Shown here piece after piece: positions 31,850-36,175 of a DNA stretch of 36,175 bases; the first letter of the stretch is position 1; each line of letters opens with the position of its first letter. The stretch is from contig CANIJN010000020.1 in assembly GCA_947467625.1 (NCBI GenBank), positions 1-36,175 on the forward strand. The letters are read 5' to 3'. This DNA is from Opitutia bacterium (GTDB lineage Bacteria; Verrucomicrobiota; Verrucomicrobiia; Opitutales; Opitutaceae). Below the pieces are notes generated by a model, which saw only the letters and a program-made list of their open reading frames with translations, had not been told where the DNA came from and ran no database searches. The translations under genes were made by a program, and so were the position numbers.

Positions 31850-32332
31850 ATATTCCGAGCGAAACTAATTCCGAGCCGCTGGCAAAGAAAACTTGCCCGG
31901 AAGGGAGAATTTCAGCCGAGGAAGTAGTCCCAAACGCCGCGCCGGTAAGAAAACGTCACGCTCCCTCCCCGCGACCTTCCAACGAGGGACCGCCTTCACG
32001 CCCCGCGCAAGCAGCACACCCTTCGCGCCATGGTTAGGGTCAAACATCGCCCGCTCACCGCTCATGACGACAGGCAACTGCCGGAAGACTCGGGCAGAAA
32101 AATCGCGCTGATCACACACAGGGGATTTACTCATGGCACCGACCCCAAATCAGTATCATCAGACCCTCCGCCCCTATCCGTTCACCCTTCTGGGACCTTT
32201 CCTGACGGCGAACTCCGTTGGAAAACGCTCTGCGGTTACCTTCGAAGTGAGGCTCACCGACCTCAACGTTTACCTGCCCGATCCACGCTCATTCCCCCAA
32301 TCGCGCTACCCCGCCCGTGCGGAAATCCTCGC
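31850..32332. other. Long upstream region of gltA with one doubtful frame
   Basis: The 483 bp between hisH and gltA hold no convincing gene. A minus-strand frame at 31865-32134 (89 residues, start ATG) ends 15 bp before gltA. Its tail repeats KFSLP twice (LKFSLPGKFSLPAAR) and codon bias is weak, so it is taken as a chance frame or a remnant. The gltA promoter and any leader must lie here, but no clear boxes, ribosome-binding site, riboswitch or structural RNA signature was recognised. Confidence 0.5.
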
Positions 32333-32959
32333 CTAACCCGCCGCCACCACCGCCGCGAAATTGCGGTAAACCTGCAGGCCCTTCGCCTGGCTCTTTTCGG
32401 GGTGAAACTGCGTCGCAAACACCCGCCCGCGGGCAATCGCGCAACAAAACTCCCCGCCATAATCGCACTCGGCCAAGACGAGCGAGCGCTCGACCGGAAC
32501 ACAGTGAAAGCTGTGGACAAAGTAAAAATTCTCGCCTTCGGGCGCGAGATTCGCAGCGAGGGGCGAGTTCGGCTGCACGAAGCGAACCGTGTTCCAACCC
32601 ATGTGCGGGATCTTGTACTCTGGCGGACGCTGGAAACGCACGACCTTACCCGGGAAAATCCCGAGGCCGGTGATGTCCCCTTCCTCCGAATGCTCGAACA
32701 GCGCCTGCATCCCCAGGCACACTCCCAGAAAGGGCCGGTCCGCCGCGATCCAGTCACGCACAGCGGCGTCAAGTTTCGAGGCCCGCAACGAAGCCACACA
32801 ATCCCGCAGTGCGCCCACGCCTGGCAAGACGATGCCCCGCGCGTCCGCCGCGACAATCTCCTCGGGCGTGCGGACCACCTGGATGGTCGCTCCGACCGCC
32901 TCGAGCGCCTTGGTGACGCTGCGCAGGTTGCAAATCCCGGTATCGATGACGGCAATCAT
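32333..32959 (-). CDS. hisH: Imidazole glycerol phosphate synthase glutaminase subunit
   Basis: 208 residues, a class I glutamine amidotransferase. The catalytic triad is visible: Cys81 in FLGVCLGMQ and the His-Glu pair in FATQFHPEKSQ near residue 186. MIAVIDTGICNLRSV at the start and VLPGVGALRDC are HisH hallmarks. It supplies ammonia to HisF for making imidazole glycerol phosphate. HisF and HisA are not in the window to the left of hisH, so they must lie elsewhere in the genome. It follows the Uma2-like gene by 7 bp and is the last gene of the his unit seen here. No terminator was recognised after it. Confidence 0.94.
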   Translation of the reverse strand: MIAVIDTGICNLRSVTKALEAVGATIQVVRTPEEIVAADARGIVLPGVGALRDCVASLRASKLDAAVRDWIAADRPFLGVCLGMQALFEHSEEGDITGLGIFPGKVVRFQRPPEYKIPHMGWNTVRFVQPNSPLAANLAPEGENFYFVHSFHCVPVERSLVLAECDYGGEFCCAIARGRVFATQFHPEKSQAKGLQVYRNFAAVVAAG

Positions 32960-32966
32960 CTGGCCG

Positions 32967-33512
32967 TCAGCGCCGCAACACCAGTGCCGGGAAATCCGGA
33001 CAGAGTTTCGAGCCGCGCAGGGGCTCGGCCTGACCGGCAGCGAAAAACGTCATCCCGCCCGTGAGTGAACAGTGCCACACCTCGCGGGCACCGGCATCGA
33101 AATACAGCGCCGTCTTGTCCCTCATCTCGGCGACCGTGTTGTCAGGCGAAAGCACCTCGACACAAATCTCGGGTGCACGGGAGAAACAGGTGCCATCACC
33201 AAGCTCATCCACGCAGTCACGCGAAGCCCACGCGACGTCGGCAGCGCGCACGCCATCGGCAGTGGAGATTGGGCATACCGTGAACACCTCGCCATCAGGC
33301 AGGAGGCGGTCGATGATCGCTCCGATGCGAAACTGATAACCTCCGTGACTGGCAGCAGGCGGTGGGCTCATAAGGATGTGGCCATGCCGGTCGGTTTCAA
33401 CCCGGCCCTCGACCTTAATCCACTTGGGATCGGCGACGAGCTCCGCCCAGCGACGCAGGTTGAACGCGGTCTGCGCATCCTGCGCCGGTCGTTCGATCGT
33501 GAGCGTGTCCAT
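32967..33512 (-). CDS. Uma2-family putative restriction-like endonuclease
   Basis: 181 residues from the ATG at 33512. The Uma2 (DUF820) PD-(D/E)XK core appears complete: WIKVEGRVETDRHGHI at the start, AADVAWASRD for the Asp, PEICVEVLSPDNT with the E-V-hydrophobic strand, and MRDKTALYFDAGAREVWHC carrying the Lys. Family members are nuclease-fold proteins that are very abundant in cyanobacteria and some other phyla, usually of unknown role. It lies between hisB (51 bp away) and hisH (7 bp away), in the same direction, and must be transcribed with them. A start at 33542 would add 10 residues. The gene looks like an insertion into the his operon. Confidence 0.82.
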   Translation of the reverse strand: MDTLTIERPAQDAQTAFNLRRWAELVADPKWIKVEGRVETDRHGHILMSPPPAASHGGYQFRIGAIIDRLLPDGEVFTVCPISTADGVRAADVAWASRDCVDELGDGTCFSRAPEICVEVLSPDNTVAEMRDKTALYFDAGAREVWHCSLTGGMTFFAAGQAEPLRGSKLCPDFPALVLRR

Positions 33513-33563
33513 GGTGGCAAGATGGCGCGGCGGCGGCGGCAAGCCAGACGCCCTAAGCGGCCA

Positions 33564-34166
33564 TCAGATTTTCCCCTTCGTGCTCGGCAGCTGATCCGCT
33601 GCGCGCGGCTCGATCTGCGTCGCTACATCCAAGGCGCGGGCAAGGCACTTGAAAATCGCCTCAGCCACGTGGTGCGGCTCCTCGCCGTAAACCAGCTGGA
33701 CGTGAAGATTCGCCCCGAGGGCATTGCTAAACGCCCGACAAAATTCCTTCACGAGGATAATATTGAAATCGCGCACAAACATCGTCGGGGCGTTTACCTC
33801 GTAAACCAAATGCGGGCGACCACCGACATCGACGACGATCCGGGCCAGCGATTCGTCCATCGGGAGAATAAAAAAACCGTATCGCTTGATCCCGACCTTG
33901 TCGCCGAGCGCCTCTTTGAAGGCCTGCCCGAGCACGAGCCCCACATCCTCGACCGTGTGGTGGTAGTCGACCTCGACGTCGCCCTTGGCCTTTACCGTCA
34001 GGTCGAAGAGCCCGTGCTTAGCAAAGAGCGTGAGCATGTGGTCGAAGAAGGGCACGCCGGTGGCGATTGCCGACTGGCCGCGACCGTCGATTGCCAAGGT
34101 CAGCGCGATGTCCGTCTCCGCCGTTTTACGGAGGACAGTCGCTACGCGTTTGTTGTTTTTAGCCAT
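33564..34166 (-). CDS. hisB: Imidazoleglycerol-phosphate dehydratase
   Basis: 200 residues, IGPD domain only, with no N-terminal phosphatase domain. The metal-binding repeats are visible: [33 protein letters not shown] and, in the second half, [20 protein letters not shown]. It dehydrates imidazole glycerol phosphate in histidine synthesis. The ATG at 34166 lies inside the 3' end of hisC, a 25-nt overlap that suggests coupled translation. The missing phosphatase domain implies a separate histidinol-phosphatase, for which the hisN-like gene is the candidate. Confidence 0.96.
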
Positions 34167-35254
34167 GCGTCGAGAGTTTCGTTGAGGACGAGCATTTCGT
34201 CATCGGTGCCCACGCTGATCCGCAGAAATGGGGCGGTCAAGGCGTGCTTGGGGAAGTGACGCACGAGGACTTTGTGGGCGAAAAGGAAATCGTAAGCGGA
34301 CTTCGAAATCGCCGGGCCAGACTCACCAAGCGCGTTTTTCGGCTCCGTGAAAATGAAGTTGGCCTGCGACTCGTAAGTGAACCAGCCCCGGTGCGTACTG
34401 AAACCTCGGATGCAGCGGTCTCGGGTGGCTTTGATTTTTTCTACGACGCCGGAATAGTAGGCCGTGTCGCCGAGGGCCGCGAGCGCAGCCACCTGCGAGA
34501 GGCGGTTCACATTGTAGCTGTCGCGCACGCGATCGAGCAGGCCGATGATTTCCGGATGCGCGAGCGCATAGCCCACCCGGATGCCCGCGAGCGCATAGGC
34601 TTTCGAGAGCGTGCGAACGACGACCACGTTGGGATAACGGGCGAGCAGCGGGACGGCGTTTTCCGTCGCAAAGGGCGCGTAAGCTTCGTCGACGACCAGC
34701 AGGCCACGAAACGACGCCAGCACCCGCTCGAGGTCGGCATTAGCAAAGGCGACGCCCGTGGGGGCGTTCGGCGACGTCAGAAAAAACGCCCGCGCGGTCG
34801 AGGCGGCGATGCGATCGAGAGGGAGGCGCATCGCGCGGTCGAACTCGATCACCTGAGTCGCGCCGTCCTGGATCTCGATGAGCACGGGATACAGCGAATA
34901 GCTGGGCAACGTGTAGCCGGCGGCGGCTTCTTGCGTGCAAAAAGCTCGGATGAGTAAATTGAGAATATCATCGGAGCCATTGCCGACGCAGACGTTTTCC
35001 GCCGTCAGGCCTTCGCCATGGTGCGAAGCAATGGCCGCGCGCAACGGCGAACTCTGCGGGCTGGGATAGAGCCGGAGCGAGGCCCCGTCTTCACCGATCT
35101 CGCGGCGTAGCGCTTCGGCTACCCGCGGGCTCGGCGCATACGGGCACTCGTTGGTGTTGAGTTTCGTCCAGCCTCGTTCCGTCGGCTGAAGGCCGGGCGT
35201 ATAGGCGTGGAGCTTCGCGATGTGCGGGAGGGAGAGAGCAGTGAGATCGGACAT
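34142..35254 (-). CDS. hisC: Histidinol-phosphate aminotransferase
   Basis: 370 residues. HisC hallmarks include [13 protein letters not shown] near the N-terminus, [46 protein letters not shown] and the PLP-lysine motif [17 protein letters not shown], followed by the phosphate-binding Arg in [11 protein letters not shown]. It is a soluble PLP enzyme converting imidazole acetol phosphate and glutamate to histidinol phosphate. The start is the ATG at 35254. It follows hisD after 63 bp carrying a palindromic element and overlaps hisB by 25 nt. Confidence 0.96.
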
Positions 35255-35317: not shown

Positions 35318-36175
35318 CTACACTCCCCGAATCCGCACCGAGCGGCCGTGGGCATCGAGTTTTTCCATCGCCGCAAACGCAGCCACGATCGGCGCCGCTT
35401 TTTTCACACTCGCCCGATCGTAATGGACGATGCTGGTGCGCCGGAGAAAATCATCGACCCGCAGCCCGCTGAAGAACCGCCCGGCGCGGCCCGTGGGCAG
35501 CACGTGGCTCGGGCCGGCCACGAAGTCACCGAGGGCCGTCGGTGTAAAATTACCGATCATGATCGCGCCGGCGGTCGTGATCTCGGCGGTCAGTTTCTTG
35601 GCCGCCGCATCGGCGACGAGGAGTTCGAGGTGCTCCGGCGCGACGGTATTCGCAATCTCCGCGGCGTGGGCGAGATTTTTGACCTCGATGGCGAGGAAAC
35701 CGGCATCCAGCACGCGCTGCGTTTTTTCGCGCCGCGTGATGAGCGGTAACTGGTCGCGGACCTCCCCAGCGATCGCCTCGATGATTTCAGCCGAAGTCGC
35801 GAGCAGGTAGATTTTCTCCCGGCCGGAACCGTGCTCCGCCTGCGCGAGCACATCAGCGGCCGCAAAGGATGCGTTGGCGGTGTCATCGGCAATGATCATC
35901 ACCTCGCTCGGACCCGGCAGGGAATCCACCCCGACCGTGCCGAAAACTTGGCGCTTGGCTTCGCATACGTACGCGTTGCCGGGACCATAGATCTTGTCGA
36001 CAGCGTTGATCGTCGTCGTGCCGTAGGCCATTGCGCCGATCGCCTGCACGCCACCGAAACAATACACTTCCGTGATGCCGGAGAGGTGCAGCGCCGCGAG
36101 CAGACCCGTGGCGAGCTTGCCGTCGGCATTGCTCGGTGTGAAGACCGCGATCTCCGGACAGCCGGCGATTTTCGC
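35318..36175 (-). CDS. hisD: Histidinol dehydrogenase, C-terminal part (cut by window edge)
   Basis: The 285 C-terminal residues of a protein that is usually about 430. Hallmarks visible from the edge inward are EIAVFTPSNADGKLATG, YCFGGVQAIGAMAYGT, DKIYGPGNAYVCEAK, VDSLPGPSEVMIIAD, LAQAEHGSG (with zinc and catalytic residues nearby), APEHLEL and GPSHVLPTGRAGRF. It oxidises histidinol to histidine using two NAD. It is the first his gene seen, and the operon may continue upstream beyond the window. Confidence 0.95.
   Translation of the reverse strand, partial: AKIAGCPEIAVFTPSNADGKLATGLLAALHLSGITEVYCFGGVQAIGAMAYGTTTINAVDKIYGPGNAYVCEAKRQVFGTVGVDSLPGPSEVMIIADDTANASFAAADVLAQAEHGSGREKIYLLATSAEIIEAIAGEVRDQLPLITRREKTQRVLDAGFLAIEVKNLAHAAEIANTVAPEHLELLVADAAAKKLTAEITTAGAIMIGNFTPTALGDFVAGPSHVLPTGRAGRFFSGLRVDDFLRRTSIVHYDRASVKKAAPIVAAFAAMEKLDAHGRSVRIRGV

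Follow-up and report, generated by a model that had tools for sequence, protein, structure and literature searches.

The window analysed here, a stretch of 36,175 nucleotides, is one contig of an Opitutaceae genome of 5.59 Mb in 362 contigs, and it carries histidine genes on its minus strand in the order hisD-hisC-hisB-uma2-hisH, followed by a citrate synthase gene recognised by Pfam (Table 1). The uma2 ORF encodes 181 amino acids from its ATG, and the open frame can also be read from a TTG at 33542. A sequence-only reading of this DNA had placed a Uma2-like gene between hisB and hisH, on the same strand and 7 bp from hisH, and the ORF coordinates together with the Pfam-identified neighbours confirm this. 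It had also described an accessory gene within the his operon; indeed, the strand is shared, the gaps are short (hisD-hisC, 63 bp; hisB-uma2, 51 bp; uma2-hisH, 7 bp), and the order hisB-uma2-hisH recurs in nine further copies that occupy the same slot, one of which (G005:C57) ends with its contig just inside hisH. This location suggests that uma2 may be co-transcribed with the his genes. A scan for promoters and terminators gave a signal no higher than in shuffles, and an Rfam scan of the window returned no match. A type II toxin-antitoxin pair was rejected, since hisB and hisH are direct neighbours and only 51 and 7 bp are free for a partner.

Table 1. Features of the his locus in the window
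Feature	Position	Strand	Evidence
Decayed second Uma2 remnant, hisH/citrate synthase interval	32030..32324	+	tblastn and blastn against intact L110 2293-2850
hisH, glutamine amidotransferase subunit, downstream of uma2	32333..32959	-	Pfam GATase (class I), E 9.7e-21
Uma2-family PD-(D/E)XK nuclease gene (predicted activity), in-operon	32967..33512	-	PF05685, 51 bits; model; orthologues; dN/dS
hisB-uma2 intergenic stretch	33513..33563	-	Alike in five close copies, partly in G050
hisB, imidazoleglycerol-phosphate dehydratase, upstream of uma2	33564..34166	-	Pfam IGPD, E 9.8e-62
hisC, overlapping hisB by 25 bp	34142..35254	-	Pfam Aminotran_1_2, E 4.4e-51
hisD, part listed as ORF near window end	35318..36067	-	Pfam Histidinol_dh, E 1.3e-88, profile positions 168-410 of 411

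The uma2 ORF scored 51 bits (E 1.6e-13) with the Uma2 profile PF05685, whose cutoff is 27. The match is confined to positions 12-127 of the 172 in the profile, and it is the weakest of the seven Uma2 matches above the cutoff in this genome; NCBIfam gave no match at E 0.01 for this protein or for the second Uma2 protein described below. The AlphaFold model of the product (31 subfamily sequences; mean pLDDT 90.4, pTM 0.86) has the restriction-endonuclease-like fold seen in 1wdj and 3ot2. Its closest structures by VIA-align were 1wdj_A (Z 16.6, rmsd 2.7, 159 aligned), 3ot2_A (16.0), 6okh_B (15.8), and 9y1l_B (13.5), followed by 3ijm, a restriction-endonuclease-like protein (Z 9.8), and by others at 7.0 or below, with restriction enzymes at about 7. 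Sequence-profile matches were obtained to 9y1l (E 8e-10), 6okh (1e-8), and 3ot2 (2e-6), and to 1wdj only at E 0.31, beneath an unrelated oxidase at 0.09. The Uma2 family assignment therefore stands, on the profile score and on the fold match to Uma2/DUF820 structures. DUF820 has been described earlier as a PD-(D/E)XK nuclease family with 1wdj as its representative structure (PMC1913061).

The motifs quoted in the initial description (AADVAW, CVEVLSP, RDKTALYFDAG) are all found in the product, and its description of an apparently complete PD-(D/E)XK core holds, with D92, E119, and K133 kept. E39, D41, H56, D92, and K133 are identical in 31/31 subfamily sequences and E119 in 30/31. The D, E, and K residues of the product align with the D, E, and K of 9y1l; from this alignment and from knowledge of the fold, we take D92, E119, and K133 to be the catalytic residues of PD-(D/E)XK enzymes. 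Most likely, the product is a metal-dependent DNA nuclease of this type. It may restrict foreign DNA, take part in repair, or be a solitary toxin-like enzyme; we lean slightly towards a defence or stress nuclease. Elsewhere in the subfamily, the solitary copy L131 3386-3901 has G instead of the core glutamate E119, and may be inactive because of this replacement.

Within the genus, a uma2 copy at 91% identity or more was present in five of nine genomes, the window's genome included, and the orthologues of the four others (91-98% identical) lie at the same place; together with a dN/dS well below 1, this shows that the ORF is not a chance one. In the family scan, 10/252 genomes gave a match with an E of 1e-20 or lower, and eight of them have the hisB-hisH slot filled by uma2 (G000, G001, G004, G005, G006, G050, G168, and G173); the remaining two are G169, whose copy lies elsewhere and is broken into two frames, and G185, in which a 42% relative lies close to a PIN-domain gene. 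Counting both G005 contigs, and L107, which is in the slot and absent from the family-scan matches, there are ten in-slot copies in three genera. A scan of named genomes yielded 29 loci, nine in the slot and 20 without hisB or hisH in the surrounding DNA examined, and at least ten further loci from 372 order genomes and 387 phylum genomes, where the best 8-9 candidates per genome were scored, showed no his link within 1.5 kb. Solitary status was judged from flanking DNA that on one side could be as little as 190-785 bp, and from 1.5 kb for the ten order and phylum loci; neighbours of solitary copies were relisted by a longest-ORF rule rather than by a gene caller. The in-slot relatives from named genomes are MAGs that carry the labels Opitutus sp. 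GAS368, Opitutaceae bacterium, or, for L107 and L109, Verrucomicrobia bacterium, in keeping with the Opitutaceae label of the window. The records in which the subfamily as a whole was found bear the labels of Verrucomicrobia and kin, apart from one Acidobacteria record and one Klebsiella MAG. The G005 MAG contains two hisB-uma2 versions (L093 = C57 and L110 = C265), 92% and 71% identical to the window protein, possibly reflecting a strain mixture or a duplication.

The first description had held that the same gene in most relatives, with conserved synteny, would mark an old and stable operon member. The age and synteny were recovered in the hisB-hisH intervals of relatives, but the presence is patchy (5/9 in the genus, 8/252 in the family), so that "most relatives" applies only by half. 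Regarding the junction itself, in 150 family genomes (a set without G002, of the same genus, in which no uma2 orthologue was found) hisH lay within 20 kb of hisB, on the same contig and strand, for at least 129 of 141 hisB places; for the other 12 there was no match within 20 kb among the hisH matches listed. These 141 places come from 142 hisB matches, G039:C84 (a 45% match) having been left out. The hisB-hisH gap was 2-348 bp in 117/129 pairs and 600 bp or more in 12/129, and the 12 long gaps contain Uma2 in five cases and other genes in five, the remaining two, in G053 and G021, measuring 12.6 and 14.6 kb. Since different genes occupy the long gaps across the family, the junction seems to tolerate insertions.

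The other occupants are antisense genes for a GDSL-like hydrolase (G139, L088), a calcineurin-like phosphoesterase (G135, L089), a nucleotide cyclase (G079, L090), and an ICMT/PEMT-like methyltransferase (G068, L045), and, in sense orientation, an ORF that matched no Pfam profile (G012, L087). Two empty sites carry a palindrome (G061:C109:23837-23856 and G031:C66:15486-15505) that looks like a REP-type repeat and was counted, within two mismatches, 16 times in G061, 11 in G173, 3 in G031, and 0 in both G000 and G007. The idea that the first hisH codons were lost at insertion was dropped, as the empty G061 and G142 also show ATG-ATC-GCC-GTC at the hisH start.

When 31 Uma2 proteins were placed in one tree, support was 99 for separating the ten in-slot copies from the 21 solitary copies; in a 42-tip tree, with ten more solitary copies and a 69-residue G169 fragment, the same split had support 85, the G169 fragment being the nearest solitary tip. 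Two alleles were distinguished, allele I in G000, G004, G006, G001, G005:C57, G050, G168, and L107, and allele II in G005:C265 and G173; separate insertions of the two were ruled out, since both fall inside the one in-slot clade. Moreover, the distance from the uma2 stop to the hisH ATG is 7 nt in 10/10 in-slot copies. This is an old gene in a slot common to three genera, and not a recent insertion. The recent, transposon-like origin that had been suggested is not supported, in view of the three-genus slot, the same 7-nt spacing, the single clade, and the lack of a PF07282 match. The TnpB profile PF07282 (the one transposase profile searched) had no match in the genome, with a control search positive in 6/14, and no target-site duplication or terminal repeat was seen at the locus by eye; on the absence of PF07282 and of a visible duplication, a recent transposon insertion was rejected. 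Repeats within 32250-33700 looked chance-like by eye, and near-identical uma2 copies elsewhere in a genome were not seen.

The patchy presence, and the fact that the slot houses other genes in other genera, would also be expected if a mobile cassette had recently and repeatedly been transferred into the hisB-hisH junction. We consider this unlikely, given the single in-slot clade, the spacing held constant across genera, the unmatched PF07282, and a uma2 GC3 (0.714) close to that of the his genes (0.755-0.785).

The gene also bears marks of selection. Among five close copies, dN/dS (NG86) of uma2 was 0.12-0.31 in 10 pairs, and it was 0.05-0.31 over all 45 in-slot pairs, of which the distant ones often have dS >1, near saturation. 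In each of the five pairs examined for it, synonymous changes exceeded expectation (p from 2.7e-5 to 0.006). The low dN/dS and the synonymous excess indicate that selection acts on the Uma2 protein. Among close copies, this constraint is weaker than on hisB (0.05-0.09, window against G004, G006, and G001) and on hisH (0.06-0.12, six pairs among G000, G004, G006, and G001). The constant spacing to hisH, with no clear Shine-Dalgarno sequence by eye in the 7-nt spacer, could instead mean that only the open frame matters, uma2 being kept open for hisH polarity or translational coupling while its protein is useless. However, the constraint operates at the level of residues, the core residues are kept, and the great majority of hisB-hisH pairs have no more than a short gap, which makes this explanation improbable.

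A comparison within the locus is offered by a second Uma2 gene, belonging to a different subfamily, in the hisH/citrate synthase interval, on the strand opposite to the his genes. The remnant in the window shares 72% nucleotide identity over 293 columns, in two frames, with the intact minus-strand copy of L110, and corresponds to about residues 1-97 of the protein, the C-terminal half being gone. An uninterrupted frame of this gene is present in G168 and in G005:C265 (185 aa, Pfam E 1.3e-35). In G003, where the contig ends, the visible part is likewise open, and in G008 the gene is split into two frames; in the window, G004, G006, and G001 it is cut to about residues 1-97, the G004 stump still being in a single frame. 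At least half of the second Uma2 is thus gone in these four genomes while the in-operon uma2 is whole, which provides a natural control.

On a hisB+hisH tree of 40 tips chosen from the 129 pairs (without G005:C57, which lacks hisH), uma2 presence requires five changes by parsimony, with filled and empty tips intermingled; the filled G173 and the empty G061 form a sister pair (support 100). Gains and losses cannot be separated on this tree, because support at several deep nodes is no higher than 22-55, and the patchiness would also be expected from repeated horizontal transfer. Recombination appears to have acted on the gene as well. The dS of G005:C265 to the window is 1.37 for uma2, 0.37 for hisB, and 0.65 for hisH, which fits an allele exchanged between native flanks. 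Of the 33 differences between G004 and G001, 17 are packed into one 54-nt stretch (codons 57-74), a clustering that none of 2000 shuffles reached; the odd version of the stretch is common to the window, G004, and G006 and partly resembles the broken solitary G169 copy, a pattern that suggests gene conversion. As a separate observation, 20 clustered variants at roughly 36-45% are reported in the Uma2 gene Tsac_2318 of an engineered Thermoanaerobacterium (PMC6997586), and this cluster resembles either a conversion tract or mis-mapped reads.

The patchy occupation of the slot and its exchanged alleles could also arise from a selfish, homing-like element, whose nuclease would cut empty hisB-hisH junctions, after which repair on a filled homologue would copy the gene into them. 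The fixed slot without visible transposon traces, the filled and empty sister pair, the occurrence of allele II in two genera (g1 and g7), and the conversion-like tract and allele replacement between native flanks would all be accounted for. Yet many subfamily members are solitary elsewhere (20 of the 29 named-genome loci and at least ten more), ordinary homologous recombination yields the same pattern, and the empty junctions read by eye have no obvious common target; we therefore regard this mechanism as very unlikely. Slightly more doubtful still is its fuller form, in which the his-operon Uma2 uses an essential-pathway junction as its fixed site, entering empty junctions and having its alleles overwritten via its own breaks.

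The reading that we consider probable is a single capture. A Uma2-family nuclease gene would have been captured once, at the hisB-hisH junction, in an ancestor of some Opitutaceae; it would then be read from the his transcript, immediately before hisH, with selection preserving the sequence of its protein, a probable nuclease. The slot is filled in some lineages and vacant in others, and the allele appears to have been swapped by recombination. Judged from the genomic data, the gene is best read as an old, domesticated nuclease gene that may use the his promoter.

Uma2 nucleases are widespread, and the role of the family is not settled. In this context, one fixed slot, a selected gene, and a close pair with the slot filled in G173 and empty in G061 offer a clean place to study the function of the protein. 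The same slot is useful for asking how accessory genes settle in biosynthetic operons, although alone it is a modest finding.

The product resembles the known Uma2 family (PF05685, DUF820, COG4636) in its profile, in its fold (1wdj, 3ot2, 6okh, 9y1l), and in the D/E/K positions; it differs in belonging to a divergent subfamily that covers only part of the Pfam profile. The PADLOC candidate PDC-S03 matches its core motif weakly and only in part (residues 109-146, E 3.8e-6), whereas it matches the second Uma2 of L110 over nearly the full length (E 1.3e-41). In the literature, judged mostly by titles, we found no work on Uma2 in a histidine operon or on this Opitutaceae locus. Uma2 has been termed a "likely solo toxin" (PMC2701414), and the his-operon gene is likewise solitary, with no partner gene; that account calls Uma2 cyanobacteria-specific and mostly found in paralogue cassettes, in contrast to the one copy of the his operon plus the remnant beyond hisH. 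In Lyngbya, a Uma2 ORF is reported near hoxW (PMC2674450). The closest arrangement is that of Synechocystis 6803 and 6714, in which a DUF820 gene is described within the hox hydrogenase operon, its product, Sll1222, being likewise encoded among metabolic operon genes (PMC4963859). That operon is described as also carrying a toxin-antitoxin pair (PMC4963859), unlike the his operon, where uma2 has no room for an adjacent partner. Since the presence of a Uma2 gene within the hox operon has already been published (PMC4963859), the his-operon uma2 represents a further case of a known arrangement.
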